The notes under the pieces were generated by a model, which was not told the DNA's origin, made no database searches, and saw nothing but the letters and a program-made list of their open reading frames with translations. The translations under genes were made by a program, and so were the position numbers. Source: a virus. Taken from it: a stretch of 37,839 nucleotides of DNA. Of the stretch, positions 8,729 to 37,839 are shown in pieces; positions within the stretch are counted from its first letter, which is position 1; every line of letters starts with the position of its first letter. The stretch lies in IMG/VR virus record IMGVR_UViG_3300034062_002287, positions 1-37,839 of that record. One strand, written 5' to 3'.

Positions 8729-10992
8729 TGGAAAACGTAATTATCAAGTTTACTGCCGACACCACAGGATTACAACCTGCGGTTGAACAACTAAAACTTA
8801 TTGGAAAGATTACTGAGGAAGATGCAAGAAAGATTGATGAAATAAATCAATCCCAAGCCAAATATCTTAACACATTAAAAGCCACAACAAAGGAAGCAGG
8901 AAACTTTGGTGATGAAATGGCAAGTATTAAAGCAGAAATTCAAGCAGGAATATTAGAAGGAGTTGCTGAACACTTTGCTGAAATGGGTAAGGAGATGGAA
9001 GGGGCAGGAAAGAAAAGCAAAACCCTAAAACAAGAGTTAAAAGAATTAAAAACACAGATTGCAAGTGGTGGATTGGATGCAAAACAATTATCTGAAGCCA
9101 CAAAGAGAGCGGCAGAACTTACCGACCATTTAGGCGATGTAAATCAAAAGATTAAGGCATTATCAAGCGACACAAAGAGGATTGATGCAGTAGTTGAAGG
9201 ATTCAGAGGATTAGCTGGAGGTGTTTCAGTTGTTACAGGTGCAATGGGTTTGTTGGGTAGTGAAAATAAGGAACTTGAAAAGACATTGCTAAAAACTCAA
9301 AGTGCAATGGCTTTACTGCAAGGTGTTCAGGAGTTGGCAAACTTGGCAACGGGTGAGGGAATTGTAAAAAATTATGCCTTAGCAGCGAGTGAAAAAGTTG
9401 CAGCAGTAGCAAGTAAAGCATTAGGAGTAGAAATTACTGCATCAATGGCAATGGCAACGGGTGGCATATCTTTGTTAATTGCAGGACTTGCCTATTTAGT
9501 TGTTGAAATGAATACCACAGAGCAATCAACTAAACAGATTCAGGAAAGATTATCCAAGATGTATGAAAAGGATAAAGATGTTTATGAAAAAGTATTGCAA
9601 AAGCGATTAGAGTTATTAAAAGGAAATAAAAAAGGTGAGTTAGATGCCTTGAAGATTGCCTATGATTATGAGTTTAAACAAAGAGAAAAGGCAAGAAAAG
9701 AAACAGGTCAAAGCCAAGCGTCATTTGATGCAGAAACAGTGCTTAATTTTGAACTTTATAATAAGCAAAGGGATGAAATAAATAAAAAGTGGGATGAAAA
9801 GGAAAAGAAAGATTTAAAAGACCAACAAGAGAAAAAAGCAAAAGTAAAAGCAACAGCAGACGCAGAAGCCTTAAAAAAGGCAGAAGAAGAAGCACGAAAA
9901 AGAGCAGAGGCAGAAGCCAAAGCCACAGAAGAAGCCAACAAAAGAGCAATGGAGGATGTTGATTCAACCTCACAACTCAAAAAGAATTACTATAGGCAGT
10001 TAGACATTCAAAAAGAATATCAAAAAAGCAGTCTTGAAATTGATGAAATATACAGCAGGATTGCATCAGAAGGTCGTTATAAAACTTCCGAAGAAATCTA
10101 TGCCCAAGTAGAAAAAGAGTTAAAGGATTACGAGGATTTAAAGAAAAAGCAAACTGATATTGATACAAAATACTTAGAAGAAAAGGCAAAGAAAGAAGAA
10201 GAGTATAGGCAATTAGCACAGCAGACAGCCATACAGATATTGGAAAATACTGCTTCATTTGCCTTTAGCCAAATTGAACAAAACCTCCAACAAGAAACAG
10301 ATTTAAAAGTTGCCGCAGCAGAAGAAGAACAACGCAAACAATTAGAAGGTCGTGAGCTTTCAGCATCACAGCAACAAGCAATCGAGAGGAATACCCAAAG
10401 AGAAATAGCAAGAATAAAAACTGAGGCGGCAAGAAAGCAAAGACAAGCGGATGTAGTTCAAGCAAGTATCAATGGAGCAATAGCAATTACAAAGGCATAC
10501 GCAACAATGGATCCGATTTCAGCAAGTATTGCCGCAGTAGGAATAGCAACATTGACAGCCTTACAAATTGCATCCATCAAGAATCAACCGATACCAAAGT
10601 TTGCCAAAGGAACAAAAGGAGTTGAAGGCCCGGGAACAGATACAAGCGATTCAATACTTGCCTATCTATCCAAAGGAGAAATGGTTATCCCTACAAAGAC
10701 AAAAGAAAGCTATTTCCCTGCCTTAGATTTAATCTTTGATAAAAAGGTAAGCCCAAGTATTGCCAATGAATTATTATTGGAGGCATCAAAAGGAAACTAC
10801 AATATTTCTCACGATTATAATAGCCCAGTGTATGTTAATAGTTCAGTAGCCATTGACTATGATAAGTTAGATAGGTTATTCAGCAAAAACAAAAGCACCA
10901 CAAACATAAATATGGATGAAAGTGGATTCAGAAAATTTTTGATTACTGAGAATGGCAAGAATGAGTATCTAAATAAAAAATTTAGGAAATGA
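8728..10992 (+). CDS. Tail tape measure protein
   Basis: A 754-aa protein, the longest in the genome. The N-terminus (FTADTTGLQPAVEQLKLIG) is followed by long heptad-rich helices. A hydrophobic segment (about 228-262, GGISLLIAGLAYLVVEM) could form the membrane-active part. A charged Ala/Glu/Lys coiled coil spans about 350-410 (residues like EEARKRAEAEAKATEE). The C-terminal signature FAKGTKGVEGPGTDTSDSI followed by AYLSKGEMVIPT is one I associate strongly with tape measure proteins of Bacteroidetes phages. It sets tail length and is released for DNA entry. The GTG start overlaps the chaperone stop by 1 bp. Its length implies a comparatively short siphovirus tail. Confidence 0.9.
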   Translation: MENVIIKFTADTTGLQPAVEQLKLIGKITEEDARKIDEINQSQAKYLNTLKATTKEAGNFGDEMASIKAEIQAGILEGVAEHFAEMGKEMEGAGKKSKTLKQELKELKTQIASGGLDAKQLSEATKRAAELTDHLGDVNQKIKALSSDTKRIDAVVEGFRGLAGGVSVVTGAMGLLGSENKELEKTLLKTQSAMALLQGVQELANLATGEGIVKNYALAASEKVAAVASKALGVEITASMAMATGGISLLIAGLAYLVVEMNTTEQSTKQIQERLSKMYEKDKDVYEKVLQKRLELLKGNKKGELDALKIAYDYEFKQREKARKETGQSQASFDAETVLNFELYNKQRDEINKKWDEKEKKDLKDQQEKKAKVKATADAEALKKAEEEARKRAEAEAKATEEANKRAMEDVDSTSQLKKNYYRQLDIQKEYQKSSLEIDEIYSRIASEGRYKTSEEIYAQVEKELKDYEDLKKKQTDIDTKYLEEKAKKEEEYRQLAQQTAIQILENTASFAFSQIEQNLQQETDLKVAAAEEEQRKQLEGRELSASQQQAIERNTQREIARIKTEAARKQRQADVVQASINGAIAITKAYATMDPISASIAAVGIATLTALQIASIKNQPIPKFAKGTKGVEGPGTDTSDSILAYLSKGEMVIPTKTKESYFPALDLIFDKKVSPSIANELLLEASKGNYNISHDYNSPVYVNSSVAIDYDKLDRLFSKNKSTTNINMDESGFRKFLITENGKNEYLNKKFRK

Positions 10993-13172
10993 ATTGGAAG
11001 TTTACAATAATTGAAAGTAACTTAGATGAAACGATTATTATTGAGCCTATTGGATGGGATGGATTAACAATTGGATTAACAAGAAACTTTGAGAATCATG
11101 GAATTATTAAGACCATTGAGAATACAGACTTTCAATTTATTGAGGATGCCTATGTATTATTAAAGTCAATTTATGATACTACGGGAGCAGATTCAATAGC
11201 TTTTTTAAAAGTAGAGTATCAATGTGAATCAGAGGCATATCAGTTGTTAGATACGTTTAAATTCGATTTTAATACCTATAAGAGAACTTGTGGTGATATG
11301 TGTATGATTGAGATTGCTGTAAATGCCAATAGTTGTTTGAATGATTTAATGGTGAGGATGTCGCAAGATATAGACTTAGCAACTACAACGGATATAGATG
11401 GAAACGAAATAACACCACTTGCAGAGGTAGATATTACATTGGGAGGTCAAGATATAGTTATTAGGAATAGGGCAGTTCCTGACCCAAGTTTAACCTATCA
11501 ATTGTCAATTACATTATCAACAAGAAACTTTGATGCCTTTCCTGCTATTGGTTGGTTGTATCATTCTTTAGCATTAAGAGTTACTGAAATTCAAGAAATA
11601 CCTGCTTTTAATTTTCTCAGCCCAACGGGAGAAACATTTGAATGTGCAACAGAACAAATGAATGATCAACCTAATTGGGAAACTGATGAAATTTTAGCTT
11701 ATACTATTTGGGAAAGAGATTTAGAAAATATTAACTTAACCGAGTTATGTCTTGAAAGAGGTTATGAGTTTAGTTTAGATGTTAACATTAGTGGAACTAT
11801 TGTAGTTCAATCAACACTTGATGCAAGTATTGTGAGTATAGATTATCAATTATATGAATTAGACGTTGTTAATAATATAAATTTGATTTATTCAGTTAAT
11901 ATGTTAACTACATCGTATGCAATTCCTGATGATATGACTCCTGTATCAATTCCTTTTTCTTATGCCAACTATTCACCTCCAAGCTTTGCAAATACAAGAA
12001 AGTTATTTGTTGTTTTTGAAACTAACTATGGTACTCCTGATGGAGTAAATGAAGATTGTAAAAGTATGCAGTTTGATTGGCAATATGATGCAGGTTCTTA
12101 TGTAGAAATGGCAATAAACACAAGTTGCCCTGACACAACTATCAAAGGGGTAAACTTAAAAGATACATTTGAATTTTTGCCAACAGCACTTGTAGGAGAT
12201 TGCTACGATGTACAATGCAATGATGAATGTATGGCTGACCATATTTTAACAAATGGTTTAAAGTTAAGAAGAAAACCCGATACAAGCAACCTATTCCTTA
12301 GCTGGGAAAATCTATTTAGAAACACCTCAAAAATATTTAATTTAGGTTGGGGAATATCTGGCAGCGACTTAATAATTGATAAGGCTAAAAAGTTCTATCA
12401 ACAAACAAATACAATATCGTTAGGAGCAGTTGATGAAGTAAAGATTAGCCATGCAAAAGAGTTTTTATTTGGGAAAGTAAATGTAGGTTATAGCAAGTGG
12501 GAATCTGAAGAGTACAATGGACTTGACGAGATGAATACAATGAGAAAGTATTCAAGACAAGGCAGTAATTCAGATAAAACACTTGACTTAGTAAGCCAAT
12601 TTATCACCGCAGGATATACCATTGAGATAACAAGGCGAAAAAGTCCATTTTCAAGCGATTGGAGATATGATAGTGATACATTTGTAATAAACATTGATGG
12701 CTCAAATGCAGTGCAAGGAGTAACATCTCCAACAAATATTGTAAGTCCATCAACAAGATACAATTACAGATTAACACCAATTAGAAATTTATTAAATTGG
12801 TTTAATCGTTTGTGCCTTTATTCACCTCAAGAATTAGTATTTAATTCATCAAACGGTAACTTTATTGCAAGTGGTAGAATGACTGGGCAATGTGATTTAG
12901 AGGATGCAGCAATAGCCGAAAATGATAACATAGTAACAGCAGATTTTGATGTAAGTGCAAATGCAGCACCTTATTTTTTGCCAATTATTTATGAATTTTC
13001 AATACCTTTGACAATGAATCAATTTATGAATGAAATGTTGGTTGACATTTATGAAAATATTTATTCATTTGAATGCAACGATATTACATTTAATGGTTAT
13101 TTATTAACCGCTACTTATGACCCGAATCAAGGAATGGCAAAGTTTACGCTGCTCCACGCAATTATGGAATAA
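10989..13172 (+). CDS. Distal tail / tail-tip structural protein (727 aa)
   Basis: Overlaps the tape measure by 4 bp (ATGA) and follows it directly, the position of distal-tail (Dit) and tail-associated proteins. The protein is mainly beta strand, with many cysteines (TCGDMCMIE, CYDVQCNDECMAD). The N-terminus (WKFTIIESNLDETIIIEPIG) resembles the opening of tail-tip proteins I have seen in Bacteroidetes phages. The middle (about 250-400) looks like a beta-sandwich, possibly carbohydrate binding. Whether it is Dit, Tal or a fusion of both cannot be decided by eye. Confidence 0.7.
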   Translation: MNWKFTIIESNLDETIIIEPIGWDGLTIGLTRNFENHGIIKTIENTDFQFIEDAYVLLKSIYDTTGADSIAFLKVEYQCESEAYQLLDTFKFDFNTYKRTCGDMCMIEIAVNANSCLNDLMVRMSQDIDLATTTDIDGNEITPLAEVDITLGGQDIVIRNRAVPDPSLTYQLSITLSTRNFDAFPAIGWLYHSLALRVTEIQEIPAFNFLSPTGETFECATEQMNDQPNWETDEILAYTIWERDLENINLTELCLERGYEFSLDVNISGTIVVQSTLDASIVSIDYQLYELDVVNNINLIYSVNMLTTSYAIPDDMTPVSIPFSYANYSPPSFANTRKLFVVFETNYGTPDGVNEDCKSMQFDWQYDAGSYVEMAINTSCPDTTIKGVNLKDTFEFLPTALVGDCYDVQCNDECMADHILTNGLKLRRKPDTSNLFLSWENLFRNTSKIFNLGWGISGSDLIIDKAKKFYQQTNTISLGAVDEVKISHAKEFLFGKVNVGYSKWESEEYNGLDEMNTMRKYSRQGSNSDKTLDLVSQFITAGYTIEITRRKSPFSSDWRYDSDTFVINIDGSNAVQGVTSPTNIVSPSTRYNYRLTPIRNLLNWFNRLCLYSPQELVFNSSNGNFIASGRMTGQCDLEDAAIAENDNIVTADFDVSANAAPYFLPIIYEFSIPLTMNQFMNEMLVDIYENIYSFECNDITFNGYLLTATYDPNQGMAKFTLLHAIME

Positions 13173-14017
13173 TGGCCACAAGCCTTATAGATTTACAGAA
13201 TAGCTTTGTAAGATTTAATGAGCAAGAATTTATTACTGACAATGATTGCGGAGTTGTTGTTGATACTTGTTTACCAATATGTGAAGCAGGAGATTTAAAG
13301 TTTCAGTTTAAAGTTATTTCAAATGATTATGCAACCTCAGCTGATTTGTTAAGTGCTTTTCAAGTAAGGAGGCAAACAAGTAGCGGATTGACCACAATTT
13401 CAACAGTGGGCAAGGATATTGCAACAATATCAACCAATACTTACATAATGTTTTTGCAATTTGACATTTCAAGTTTATTAAATGGATTGAATGATGGAGA
13501 TTGCTTTACATTACAATTTAATTTTTTAAAAGATGAACCACCTGCATATTTGTCAATAGAATCAATAACTTGTTTTAAATACTCAGTTGATAAATGCTTT
13601 ACAAGTAGGATTACTTACACTAACAATGAGGATGCTTTTGGATTTTATTATCCCAATGCTGAAAATAGAAGAAATGCAATTAGACTTCCAATGTATGCTT
13701 CTAATCCTGCCTTTGACATTGAACAAAAAACATACGTTAGAAGCAATGGAGAAAGAACAAAAGTATTTGCACGATTAGCAAAGAAATATAAGTTTGTTAC
13801 AGATTTTTTGACTGAGGAATTGCATCAAAAGTTAGTAGTTGCATTGAACCACGACACCGTGCTAATAGCAACATCAACAGACTATCAATTAGAGTGTACT
13901 TTTGAAAACGAATACAACCAAGACTTTCCAAGTATTATGCAAGGGATGAATGTATGGCCAGCAGATTTTCAAGTCTATGAAACACCATTTAACGAAATAA
14001 ATAATAATTGTGGATAA
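13172..14017 (+). CDS. Tail-tip associated protein (281 aa)
   Basis: Starts at an ATG overlapping the previous stop (TAATG). It is beta-rich with cysteine clusters (NDCGVVVDTCLPICEAGDL; CFKYSVDKCFTSR). The N-terminal half looks like a binding domain. The C-terminal half (IRLPMYASNPAFDIEQKTYV, ERTKVFARLAKKYKFVTDFL) resembles the conserved part of Bacteroidetes tail proteins. A receptor-binding or tail-tip role is inferred from order: tape measure, 727-aa tail protein, this gene. Its stop codon lies in a perfect 9-base DnaA-box-like string (14009-14017), probably by chance. Confidence 0.62.
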   Translation: MATSLIDLQNSFVRFNEQEFITDNDCGVVVDTCLPICEAGDLKFQFKVISNDYATSADLLSAFQVRRQTSSGLTTISTVGKDIATISTNTYIMFLQFDISSLLNGLNDGDCFTLQFNFLKDEPPAYLSIESITCFKYSVDKCFTSRITYTNNEDAFGFYYPNAENRRNAIRLPMYASNPAFDIEQKTYVRSNGERTKVFARLAKKYKFVTDFLTEELHQKLVVALNHDTVLIATSTDYQLECTFENEYNQDFPSIMQGMNVWPADFQVYETPFNEINNNCG

Positions 14018-29905: not shown

Positions 29906-30100
29906 ATGTCAAAGAAAAAAATTCAATACATCATTTCACCGATGCAAATGGCATTTGTGAACTCAATTATCTACAAGGCAACAGAGCCGAGCAGTAGTCT
30001 GAAAAAAGGAGAGGCATTTGGCAAGATTTTTATCGAGAGCCATCCTGAGTTCAAATCGTTTAAAAAGAAAAATGCAGATATAGAGTTGGATGGTGAGTAA
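29906..30100 (+). CDS. Hypothetical early protein (64 aa)
   Basis: Very basic protein beginning MSKKKIQYIISPMQMAFVNS, with FGKIFIESHPEFKSFKKKNA. Possibly helical and nucleic-acid binding, judged only from charge. It starts one base after the previous stop and is followed by a 181-nt non-coding stretch. Confidence 0.6.
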   Translation: MSKKKIQYIISPMQMAFVNSIIYKATEPSSSLKKGEAFGKIFIESHPEFKSFKKKNADIELDGE

Positions 30101-30150: not shown

Positions 30151-30232
30151 ATAACGTTTTGCAGATAAGCGAAGGCACAAATAGCGTTGGCATTGTGCGG
30201 TGGGATTTGGGCTTTTGCTTATTTGCTGTTAT
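30151..30232 (+). repeat. Long imperfect hairpin resembling an integron attC / cassette recombination site
   Basis: The left arm ATAAC...GCAGATAAGCGAAGGCACAAAT (30151-30182) pairs with ATTTGGGCTTTTGCTTATTT then GCTGTTAT (30205-30232). There are about 27 pairs; three departures are G-T wobbles and one is a mismatch. A 5-nt versus 1-nt asymmetric bulge lies near the foot, and the 22-nt apical region is GC-rich. The ends ATAAC/GTTAT, asymmetric bulge and large apex recall attC sites. GTTATGTG (30228-30235) recurs inverted as CACATAAC (31127-31134) after the next gene, and GTGCGGTGG occurs on both sides (30195-30203; 31093-31101). A second complete hairpin is missing, so this may be a relic or an RNA structure. 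Confidence 0.4.
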
Positions 30233-30281
30233 GTGTCTGTAATTTTTTTAAACTTTTGTGCGTGGGCTTTTAAATTATAAT

Positions 30282-35020: not shown

Positions 35021-35302
35021 ATGGAAAACTACCCACAAAAATTTATTGACTATCACGCCAAATATCCAAAGGTTTACGAGTATTACAAAGGAGTAATTGC
35101 TCAGCTAATCAATCGAGGATTTAAGAAGTATTCATCCGATGGAGTTCTGCACATTGTTAGGTTCACAAAGCACGATGAAATTAAGAAAGATGGATTCAAG
35201 GTCAACAACAATTATACTCCTTACTATGCGAGGTTGTACGAGGCTGAACATCCTGAGTTGAAGGGATTTTTTGCAAAAAGAAAAGTTAAACAAATTTGTT
35301 AA
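35021..35302 (+). CDS. Conserved phage protein of unknown function (93 aa)
   Basis: The segment FKKYSSDGVLHIVRFTK, then DGFKVNNNYTPYYARLY and HPELKGFFAKRKVK, matches a small family I have seen in many phage early regions, in which hydrophobic/aromatic residues and the DGFKxNNNxTPxYAR block are constant. No function is known to me. It begins 2 nt after the NinB-like gene and ends its operon, since a promoter and structured leader follow. Confidence 0.72.
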   Translation: MENYPQKFIDYHAKYPKVYEYYKGVIAQLINRGFKKYSSDGVLHIVRFTKHDEIKKDGFKVNNNYTPYYARLYEAEHPELKGFFAKRKVKQIC

Positions 35303-35324
35303 TTAAAAAATAATATTACATTTG
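35296..35324 (+). promoter_or_regulatory. Promoter of the structured leader and helicase-methyltransferase operon
   Basis: TTG (35296-35298), an 18-nt spacer, TACATTTG (35317-35324). Transcription would begin near 35330, just before the first arm of the pseudoknot (35335). The -33 box overlaps the end of the preceding gene. Confidence 0.75.
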
Positions 35325-35334
35325 CCAACGAAAT

Positions 35335-35418
35335 AACCGCCAAGATGAAAAGAAATTTAAAAAATAACCCTCTATTGATGTTGCTTAACTTGGCGGTTGA
35401 CAGCATTGATAGGGGGTT
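35335..35418 (+). ncRNA. Structured leader element A: hairpin whose loop pairs upstream (pseudoknot)
   Basis: Stem 2 pairs AACCCTCTATTGATGTTG (35366-35383) with 35401-35418, 18 bp including four G-T wobbles. Its 17-nt loop CTTAACTTGGCGGTTGA contains CTTGGCGGTT (35389-35398), the perfect complement of upstream AACCGCCAAG (35335-35344). The order a-b-a'-b' defines a pseudoknot. With only two loop bases between arms a' and b', full pairing of all 10 bp may be strained, so partial pairing or a switch between the two stems is possible. The structure ends 16 nt before the helicase ATG (35435) and starts about 5 nt after the expected transcription start. Its AACCCTC stem and 3' tail resemble the element at 163-256. 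Confidence 0.6.
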
Positions 35419-35431
35419 TAACTATTTATAA
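35345..35431 (+). CDS. Possible leader peptide (28 aa) within structured leader A
   Basis: ATG begins immediately after the first pseudoknot arm. The frame encodes MKRNLKNNPLLMLLNLAVDS and eight more residues, and ends in TAA 3 nt before the helicase ATG. It is leucine-rich. Translation through this frame would unwind both stems, so it could be a regulatory leader peptide. It may equally be a chance frame in a non-coding RNA. Confidence 0.3.
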   Translation: MKRNLKNNPLLMLLNLAVDSIDRGFNYL

Positions 35432-35434
35432 ACT

Positions 35435-36805
35435 ATGCAAAACTATTTAGAGTTTTTAGAAAAAAAGAAGCACTCAATAGGAAACTTTGGATTTGAAGCA
35501 AATTATGTTCCTGAAATTGCTTTTGACTTTCAAAAATTTATTATTGAGAAAGCAGTAAAAAAAGGTCGGATGGCAATTTTTGCCGACACTGGATTAGGTA
35601 AAACCTTAATTCAATTATCAATTGCCAAAAACATTATTGAACACACTAATAAAAAGGTTTTAATTTTAACTCCTTTAGCGGTTGCATTTCAATTTATTTT
35701 AGAAGCTGAGAAACTTGGAATTGATGACATTGAGTATTCCAAAGATGGTAAGCACACTAAAAAGATTGTTATTTGCAACTATGAAAGATTGCACTATTTT
35801 GATTCATCTGATTTTGTAGGTGTTATTTTAGATGAAAGTTCAATACTTAAAAACTTTGATGGTAAAATAAAAAGTCAAGTAACTGCTTTTGTAAAAAAAA
35901 TTCCTTATAGATATTTAAGCACAGCAACTCCATCTCCAAACGATTTTATAGAACTTGGAACCAGTTCAGAAGCATTAGGATACATGGGGTACATGGATAT
36001 GCTAACAAAGTTTTTTAAGAATAACCAAAACTCAGTAGATTCAAATAATAGAAATATTGGTGAAAAATTTTATTTAAAACCACACGCTGAAACAGATTTT
36101 TTTGCTTGGGTAAATCAATGGGCAATAATGGTAAAAATGCCTTCTGATATAGGATTTTCAAATCAAAGGTATAATTTGCCTGAGTTAATTGTCAATAAAC
36201 ATATTGTAGAAAATCAATCTATGTTTGATGTAAATGGGCAAGTAACAATGTTCACTCCTATTGCTAAATCAATGACTGAGGTAAGACACGAACAAAAACA
36301 AACAGAAGAAAAAAGATGTGTAAAGGCTATTGAATTGGCAAAAGATAAAACTTCTGTTTATTGGTGCAATACTAACAATGAGAGTGCTATTTTAAAAAGT
36401 TCAGATAAAGAAGCAGTCGAAATAATTGGAAGTCAAACTATCGAAAAAAAAGAGGAAATACTTTTGGCTTTTGCTAATGGTGAAATAAAAAGATTAATAA
36501 CAAAGGCAAAAATGACTTCAATGGGATTAAACTGGCAACACTGCAATCATTCAGTATTTTTTCCTACTTGGAGTTATGAGCAATACTACCAAGCTATTCG
36601 TAGATTTTGGAGGTTTGGACAAAAAAACAATGTTGTTATTGATATGGTTATTTCCGATGGACAAACAAGAGTAATTGAAGCACTACAACAAAAAACACAA
36701 AAAGCAATTGAATTACATAAAAATCTAACTAAAAATGTAAATCAAGTATTTGAACATAAAACAAAACAATTTAACAATCAAATAATCACACCTAACTTTA
36801 TTTAA
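35435..36805 (+). CDS. SNF2-type DEAD/DEAH helicase (456 aa)
   Basis: Superfamily 2 helicase with Walker A ADTGLGKT (50-57), motif II DESS (133-136), motif III STATP (162-166), and a C-terminal motif VI QAIRRFWRFGQ near residue 390, all typical of SNF2-like translocases. It lacks a recognisable nuclease. It is followed one base later by a DNA methyltransferase, a pairing seen in many phages and similar in parts to restriction-like defence (for example DISARM also joins SNF2 helicases to methylases). It may remodel DNA for methylation or assist replication, which is inference. Its start is 16 nt after the leader structure. Confidence 0.85.
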   Translation: MQNYLEFLEKKKHSIGNFGFEANYVPEIAFDFQKFIIEKAVKKGRMAIFADTGLGKTLIQLSIAKNIIEHTNKKVLILTPLAVAFQFILEAEKLGIDDIEYSKDGKHTKKIVICNYERLHYFDSSDFVGVILDESSILKNFDGKIKSQVTAFVKKIPYRYLSTATPSPNDFIELGTSSEALGYMGYMDMLTKFFKNNQNSVDSNNRNIGEKFYLKPHAETDFFAWVNQWAIMVKMPSDIGFSNQRYNLPELIVNKHIVENQSMFDVNGQVTMFTPIAKSMTEVRHEQKQTEEKRCVKAIELAKDKTSVYWCNTNNESAILKSSDKEAVEIIGSQTIEKKEEILLAFANGEIKRLITKAKMTSMGLNWQHCNHSVFFPTWSYEQYYQAIRRFWRFGQKNNVVIDMVISDGQTRVIEALQQKTQKAIELHKNLTKNVNQVFEHKTKQFNNQIITPNFI

Positions 36806-36806
36806 A

Positions 36807-37808
36807 ATGGTAAAAGAACAAGAAGTAAAAGAAAATTATGCAATCTATAATGGCGATTGCATGGAGGTCGTAAGCACCTTAAAAACAGAATCAATTGACT
36901 TAGTAATTTATTCACCTCCGTTTGCAGGTTTATACAATTATTCAAGTAGTGAAAAAGATTTTTCTAATTGTGAAAACAAAGAACAATTTTTGCAACAATA
37001 TGAATTTTTAGTAGAGCAATTGTCGAGGGTAACAAAGCCGGGCAGAATAAACGCTGTTCACGTTACAGATGTTTTTGATAATACTTGTAGGCTTTGGGAT
37101 TTTCCACACGAGGTTATTAAGATTCACGAAAAGTTTGGATTTGAATACAGAAACAGAATAACTATTTGGAAAGAGCCTTTAAAAGTAAGAATGAGAACAA
37201 TGGTTCAATCTTTAATGCACAAATTTATAGTTGAGGATTCAACAAAATGTTTTACTGCTATGCCTGATTATGTTTTAGTATTTACAAAAAAAGGTGAAAA
37301 TGAAGTACCAGTAACACATCCATTTGGAATAAATTATTATGCAGGCGAAATTCCAATTTTGCCAAACATTTTAAGGGCTTGGAACAATGCAAATAACTCA
37401 GACTTAAACGAAGAACAACTTTGGGAACATTTAAACAACATAAACAAAGAAGATAAAATCACAAAGTTAAATCACTACATTTGGCAAAGGTATGCTTCGA
37501 GTGTTTGGGATGATATTAGAATTGATAATGTTCTACCTTTTAGAGATTCCAAAGAAGAAGATGACGAAAAGCATGTACACCCTTTACAATTAGATGTAAT
37601 TGATAGATTGGTAGAATTGTATTCAAATCCTAATGAAGTTGTTTTAACTCCTTTTGCAGGGGTTGGAAGTGAGGTTTATTCTCCATTGTCTTTAGGTCGC
37701 AAAGCTATTGGTATTGAATTAAAGGATTCCTACTATAAGCAAATGAAAATAAATATTAAGGAAGTTAAAAGTAGATTTGTAGAAAAGAAACAAATTTCTG
37801 CATTCTAA
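36807..37808 (+). CDS. DNA methyltransferase, beta class (N4-cytosine/N6-adenine)
   Basis: A 333-aa enzyme. YNGDCMEVV (14-22) resembles the motif III region, the catalytic motif IV is SPPF (36-39), and motif I FAGVG (283-287) lies near the C-terminus. The order IV then I marks beta-class amino-methyltransferases. SPPF rather than DPPY favours N4-cytosine, though N6-adenine is possible. A long middle region (about 100-270) likely contains target recognition. No restriction partner is present, so it probably protects phage DNA from host restriction or regulates it, with the adjoining helicase as partner. The last 96 bases are repeated at the left end of the window. Confidence 0.88.
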   Translation: MVKEQEVKENYAIYNGDCMEVVSTLKTESIDLVIYSPPFAGLYNYSSSEKDFSNCENKEQFLQQYEFLVEQLSRVTKPGRINAVHVTDVFDNTCRLWDFPHEVIKIHEKFGFEYRNRITIWKEPLKVRMRTMVQSLMHKFIVEDSTKCFTAMPDYVLVFTKKGENEVPVTHPFGINYYAGEIPILPNILRAWNNANNSDLNEEQLWEHLNNINKEDKITKLNHYIWQRYASSVWDDIRIDNVLPFRDSKEEDDEKHVHPLQLDVIDRLVELYSNPNEVVLTPFAGVGSEVYSPLSLGRKAIGIELKDSYYKQMKINIKEVKSRFVEKKQISAF

Positions 37809-37839
37809 TTCATTTGCAGATTAAAAAAATAATCCGTAA
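37713..37839. repeat. Terminal direct repeat, right copy (circular-contig overlap)
   Basis: Identical to bases 1-127. Joining 37712 to 1 makes a seamless circle in which the methyltransferase is followed by leader element B and the replication genes. Confidence 0.9.

Follow-up and report, generated by a model that had tools for sequence, protein, structure and literature searches.

The PR'-tR' 6S leader of lambdoid phages is controlled by Q, has no loop-loop pairing, and occurs as one such leader per late operon. In the plasmid Rep leaders PK-repBA and PK-repZ, the loop of hairpin I carries UUGGCG upstream and CGCCAA lies downstream, beside the rep start. Lambdoid phages are known to have early genes situated behind promoter-proximal terminators (PMC9378689), and the put RNAs, of which there are two sites per phage, contact the zinc-binding domain of the RNA polymerase beta' subunit and bring about antitermination (PMC9378689). 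The leader of gene 32 in phages T4 and RB69 illustrates that the sequence of such an RNA may diverge while its structure is kept (PMC535899).

Here we analyze a leader at positions 35335-35418 of a 37,839-nt stretch of viral DNA (IMG/VR record IMGVR_UViG_3300034062_002287; hereafter the window), and compare it with what is apparently a large and undescribed class of ~90-base phage leader RNAs in which two loops pair just 5' of a gene start. Like the 6S (Q) and nut/N leaders of lambdoid phages, members of this class have a phage promoter followed by a close intrinsic terminator before genes; they differ in that their loops kiss and that they occur as several short cassettes directly before single genes. 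The put RNAs of HK022 and the class share a size of ~70-90 nt and a pair of stem-loops close to where early phage transcripts begin, but the class has kissing loops and a U-run after hairpin 2, and to our knowledge neither HK022 put hairpin is a terminator. The gene 32 leader resembles the leader reported here in that each is a 5'-terminal pseudoknot and precedes a DNA-metabolism gene of a phage; it is, however, ~28 nt long and serves translational repression by gp32, whereas the class has terminator form and many target genes. The pairing letters in the window, UUGGCG and CGCCAA, are also those of the IncI/IncB/IncL-M plasmid Rep leader pseudoknot, although the strand order is reversed, the window has no rep gene, and the score falls below cut-off. 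The pT181-type antisense transcription attenuators (PMC3753616) likewise combine, within one leader, an intrinsic terminator and a loop-loop contact, but with the partner loop on a separate antisense RNA, whereas in the class it lies in the same leader.

Neither the window nor 17 further leader-bearing loci gave a match to any Rfam family at its gathering score; the nearest matches below gathering by cmscan were PK-repBA (RF01089; 26.6 bits, E 3e-4, cut-off 45) and PK-repZ (RF01087; 19.3 bits versus 44). A search of the open-access PMC literature likewise returned no description of kissing-loop or pseudoknot leaders in such phages. Kissing loops and terminator leaders are known kinds of element; their combination in a portable, multi-copy, allelic phage cassette appears to be new.

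Fold and setting of the reported leader

The window carries a 127-base direct terminal repeat (1-127 = 37713-37839), which indicates that the phage genome is complete and either circular or circularly permuted; through this repeat the window start carries a second copy of the methylase gene's end. The closest cultured relatives of the window are Flavobacterium phages, and a few cultured phages suggest flavobacterial hosts for the leader-bearing phages. The features at the reported locus are as follows.

35296-35324, + strand: predicted promoter of the reported leader, of good Bacteroidetes type (TTG at 35296-35298, spacer of 18 nt, TACATTTG at 35317-35324)
35335-35344, + strand: arm a, AACCGCCAAG, with its partner at 35389-35398 and without a surrounding P1 hairpin
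35345-35431, + strand: overlapping 28-codon ORF, MKRNLKNNPLLMLLNLAVDSIDRGFNYL, covering the whole hairpin
35366-35383, + strand: 5' arm (b) of the 18-bp terminator-like stem
35389-35398, + strand: arm a', CTTGGCGGTT, inside the 17-nt loop, a perfect complement to arm a
35401-35418, + strand: 3' arm (b') of the stem; the tail including the next U is UUUAACUAUUUAU, a weak U-run
35435-36805, + strand: DEAD/SNF2-type helicase, the first gene behind the leader (Pfam Helicase_C 4e-10, DEAD 7e-7)
36807-37808, + strand: N6/N4 DNA methylase, the second gene (Pfam N6_N4_Mtase 1e-22)

On rechecking, the coordinates given in the initial annotation for the stem, the loop complement and the promoter were all correct, as was the distance of 16 nt from the stem to the helicase ATG (35435). 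That annotation had not noticed a 6-pair extension of the hairpin, the 28-codon ORF, the terminator-like end of the stem or a second element at 163-259, nor that the usual form of such leaders has a 5' hairpin and an intrinsic-terminator end.

The promoter box begins 18 nt 5' of arm a (35317 versus 35335), and the arms follow one another as a, b, a', b', giving an H-type pseudoknot in which the linkers measure 21, 5 and 2 nt. The stem (35366-35383 with 35401-35418) consists of 18 uninterrupted pairs, 14 Watson-Crick and 4 G-U; the G-U pairs are possible in + strand RNA only, where the minimum free energy (MFE) is -28.9 kcal/mol, as against -17.6 kcal/mol for the - strand. This stem is the strongest in the window, and none other equals it. 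The leader folds with z = -4.06, an equally good fold occurring in 0 of 200 shuffles. A pseudoknot score of 62.5 was obtained for the real sequence and 42.5 for the best of 3000 dinucleotide-preserving shuffles of the 160 nt 5' of the helicase ATG; since none of the 3000 reached the real score, chance pairing is ruled out, as the initial annotation had anticipated in calling chance unlikely. A DNA inverted repeat is disfavored by the four G-U pairs, by the strand-specific stability, and by the covariation described below for subfamily A2. Another unusually strong hairpin, of 16 bp and followed by a T run, lies at 30161-30226 between the ORF at 29906-30100 and the gene at 30258.

Pairing between a and a' extends over 10-11 bp, although its end pairs may not all form, a linker of 2 nt being short for a 10-bp helix. 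The pseudoknot-free MFE fold adds 6 pairs to the hairpin and consumes part of a'; this extension is worth -6.4 kcal/mol and the a:a' duplex -16.0 kcal/mol, the latter figure including no pseudoknot penalty. The 3' end of the stem reads GGGGGUUU, like a weak intrinsic terminator: the tail UUUAACUA has 4 U in the 8 nt past the last G-C pair, compared with a class median of 6. At the same place the relative L172 has UUUUUUAUUU.

Relatives of the leader and of the helicase

Besides the window, 18 IMG/VR loci carry window-type leaders, in three sequence variants; the genes they precede include a minimum of two helicase types, along with several others. A seven-row alignment that includes L051 has an invariant a:a' core and a stem with three double changes. 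The helicase itself has homologues on IMG/VR contigs that are 84-91% identical and whose upstream DNA is unrelated; several of these unrelated upstream regions share the order a-b-a'-b', the U-run, and a promoter just 5'. Of 63 distinct sequences upstream of homologous helicases, only 10 carry a promoter-positioned element; as most lack one, a special tie to the helicase is not supported. OP947161 (L196) encodes, at 9218-11873, a helicase 79.5% identical to that of the window; the record is named as a Rhodobacteraceae phage, a host label that may be wrong, and our element scanner gave one lower-confidence match in it.

The initial annotation had read the locus as a cis-regulatory leader controlling a helicase and a DNA methylase. 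What stands of this is a structured leader, most likely acting in cis, with loop-to-leader pairing; a specificity for helicase and methylase is not supported, as the same leaders precede homing endonucleases, replication-type genes and small genes.

A class of kissing-loop leaders

From 5' to 3', the class layout comprises a TAnnTTTG promoter, a hairpin P1, an A/U-rich linker, a terminator-like hairpin, a U-run and the start codon. P1 begins ~5 nt past the promoter box, and its loop is complementary to the apical loop of the second hairpin. P1 measures 4-9 bp, its loop 6-18 nt (median 8.5), and the kissing helix a median of 7 bp; the first ATG stands at a median of 18 nt past the last G-C pair of the stem. 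Most copies have, by eye, a short inner stem P3 under the apical loop, and the loop sequences vary among copies within one genome.

With a scanner and cut-offs that were devised after the first examples had been seen, a scan that left the 5' hairpin optional placed arm a mostly within the loop of a short hairpin, P1. Where P1 was required, the scanned loci yielded 42 promoter-positioned matches on the helicase strand versus 2 in shuffles, and the promoter box starts 13 or 14 nt 5' of P1 in 26 of the offsets listed. A stricter scan, in which the U-run was not required and loci obtained by a T-rich pattern were excluded, returned 43 non-redundant elements versus 1.5 per shuffled pass. A U-run (five or more U among the 8 nt past the stem) is present in 40 of these 43, which have the promoter-stem-U-run-gene order of an intrinsic-terminator attenuator; the reported copy has that order weakly. 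A TTG lies 17-22 nt 5' of the TAnnTTTG box in 20 of 44 elements, where 5.9 are expected.

The reported leader has no clear P1 hairpin at 35335-35344, and P3 is absent too. With P1 missing its 5' strand is free, and it would thus form a pseudoknot. Because P1 and P3 are missing and the a:a' core is invariant among its relatives, we assign it by layout and position, rather than by full membership, as a probable divergent, P1-less member of the class.

The genes behind the leaders include helicases, NUMOD4-type HNH and GIY-YIG endonucleases, replication-type genes (MSGWIKV..., MAKNFPYFKF...) and small proteins, as named from recognizable motifs and from annotated relatives in NC_048841 rather than by a family search for each gene. 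Homing-endonuclease genes stand directly behind leaders at loci L208, L210, L211, L217, L222, L232, L259, L282 and L309, as if the selfish endonuclease gene traveled with its own promoter and attenuator.

Class copies are present in the cultured phages snusmum6-1 (at 13660-13747), 11b and FCV-1; the scanner found no elements in Cellulophaga phi38:1 or crAss001 (first 50 kb of each), phi12:1 or Nonlabens P12024L. The motif pattern of a single subfamily gave zero matches in 396 bacterial genomes of the phylum and 400 of the family, and 32 distinct matches among the fetched loci, many of which had been fetched via an overlapping pattern; the absence of this one subfamily's motif from ~790 bacterial genomes suggests a phage element. 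Searching 301 family genomes with a covariance model gave no match, but only 14 candidates were scored in each, which makes the result uninformative.

Covariation in subfamily A2

A pattern search of IMG/VR produced 67 unique stretches, 43 of them with the kissing helix and P1 at the score cut-off; a few among the lowest scorers of the 43 resemble chance matches. In the A2 alignment of 29 sequences, whose rows were chosen by the scanner but whose covariation counts are independent of it, the P1, P2, P3 and kissing helices are 98.8% paired, compared with 27-39% in slid controls, and both partners have changed in 15 of 23 pairs. Pairing in the kissing helix is 100%, and 6 of its 7 pairs show compensation. 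Between P2 and P3, the internal loop GAGUAG / CGAAAGC hardly varies; it looks similar to the AGUA/GAA bulged-G (loop E) module. A covariance model built on A2 recovers the copies in FCV-1 (53.8 bits), snusmum6-1 (35.4 bits) and 11b (30.3 bits).

The initial annotation had pointed to covariation in related leaders as the check on its fold. The wider class supplies it, both in the compensated pairs of the A2 kissing helix and in the five allelic loop pairs described below. The window's own subfamily varies too little for such a check: 6 of its 10 a:a' pairs are invariant and 0 are changed on both sides. The two-state switch offered as a second possibility gains no support here: the loop-loop pairing can coexist with the outer stem, and, when a competing helix was sought in A2, the covarying columns were scattered and made up no contiguous helix. 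No alternative antiterminator helix was found.

A second copy in the window and its loop alleles

A further element lies near the start of the window.

163-178, + strand: P1 hairpin of the second element, GUUGU-CGGCAU-ACAAC (P1 of 5 bp; loop a at 168-173)
214-259, + strand: terminator-like hairpin of the second element (5' arm 214-232, 3' arm 239-259)
233-238, + strand: apical loop a', AUGCCG, complement of 168-173
274-468, + strand: gene for a 64-aa phage protein behind the second element

The element at 163-259 is a textbook copy of the class, with P1 present. The likely promoter of this copy is TAACATTG near 124, which matches less well and stands farther 5' than usual. The linker between P1 and hairpin 2 contains an extra small GNAA-type hairpin in L378-L380 and L386 (GGUG-GAAA-CACC or GGUG-GCAA-CACC) and a different short hairpin, AGCAAUAGCAAUAUUGC, in the window.

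Five loop alleles occur among the relatives of the 64-aa gene (CGGCAT, GGGCAT, GTGCCA, GTAGGAG and GTGGAAG), and in every case the second loop is the full complement of the first. A comparison of L378 with L380 shows 1 difference over 186 sites in the gene but 30 over 102 sites in the leader outside the loops, and their loops are different; genes that are 99.5% identical while their leader alleles differ point to cassette exchange. Between the window and L382 there are 18 differences over 186 gene sites and 0 over 103 leader sites. As judged from these comparisons, leader and gene recombine, and loop alleles are swapped among near-identical genes.

Function of the leaders

We favor, with a probability of roughly 55% and on the strength of sequence analysis, the reading that the helicase-methylase transcript has the reported feature as its folded 5' leader, one of a set of promoter-proximal attenuator cassettes that precede early genes. 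The leader would fold during its own synthesis, and the loop-loop pairing would brace the second, terminator-like hairpin. Host RNA polymerase would often stop at the U-run, freeing a compact ~90-nt RNA; expression of the gene would depend on read-through, and a factor from phage or host may increase this at the right moment. Given the weak U-run of the reported leader, its read-through should be high, and it may be leaky.

It is unlikely, in our estimate, that the leader is instead a put-like antitermination RNA, whose two-hairpin fold would bind the elongating polymerase and make it resist terminators, including the leader's own. The put RNAs, ~70 nt with two stem-loops near an early promoter, function without a phage protein (PMC9378689); the leader hairpins similarly start ~5 nt past the promoter box, and the near-invariant GAGUAG / CGAAAGC internal loop of one subfamily could be a recognition site. 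Outside that subfamily, however, most copies have no common conserved sequence, and the second hairpin of the leader is terminator-like, which that of put is not.

A 5'-end protector or insulator, which would shield the mRNA from RNases and keep the gene apart from the sequence upstream of it, with no regulated termination involved, is an improbable reading. The structure does sit at the extreme 5' end, the median of 18 nt between stem and start codon would leave the ribosome site open, and the element is portable and precedes unrelated genes; protection leaves unexplained both the U-run in 40 of 43 copies and the allele-specific variation of the loops.

That variation speaks for a specificity RNA acting in trans, a reading we consider quite unlikely, in which the terminated leader would meet the leaders of co-infecting phages and the loops would tell self from non-self, as when antisense RNAs control plasmid copy number. 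Leader alleles are swapped among near-identical genes (L378/L380 and window/L382), and loops differ among the copies of one genome. Yet the partner of every loop lies within its own RNA molecule, which favors pairing in cis, and ordinary recombination with compensation could yield the same pattern; antisense promoters were found at 6 of 43 elements versus 3.3 expected, with no clear excess. By extension, an allelic code in which phage populations would maintain several interchangeable cassettes with orthogonal loops in front of one and the same gene, whose terminated leaders would act in trans on co-infecting phages of the same allele as an RNA-only immunity or cross-talk, also strikes us as quite improbable.

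It is very unlikely that the leader is a translational operator to which a nucleic-acid-binding protein of the phage itself would bind: a 5'-terminal pseudoknot does precede a DNA-metabolism gene here, as in T4 and RB69 gene 32 (PMC535899), but the leaders precede functionally unrelated genes, so autogenous binding cannot be general, and the terminator form would be left unexplained. We dismiss as most improbable the reading in which a small peptide gene at 35345-35431 is the selected feature and the RNA pairing a by-product: all three window-type variants do retain both an ATG past arm a and a 21-28-codon ORF, with similar starts (MKxxLxNxPxLxLxxLAV), but the differences between window and L172 are nearly all nonsynonymous (one is synonymous), stem pairs are mostly preserved through G-U changes, ORF length is variable and the canonical class has no such ORF, so this ORF is probably not what selection has kept. 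A leader-peptide attenuator is ruled out, the ORF having no protein-level conservation.

Conclusions

If the attenuator reading is true, this group of phages uses a plug-in RNA module, made up of promoter, kissing hairpins and terminator, for early genes including homing endonucleases, and the leaders would provide a first RNA-level handle on the timing of gene expression in Bacteroidota phages. They would also supply naturally orthogonal cis attenuators for Bacteroidota synthetic biology, and would raise a testable question about the biology of these phages: why loops are exchanged among near-identical phage genes.
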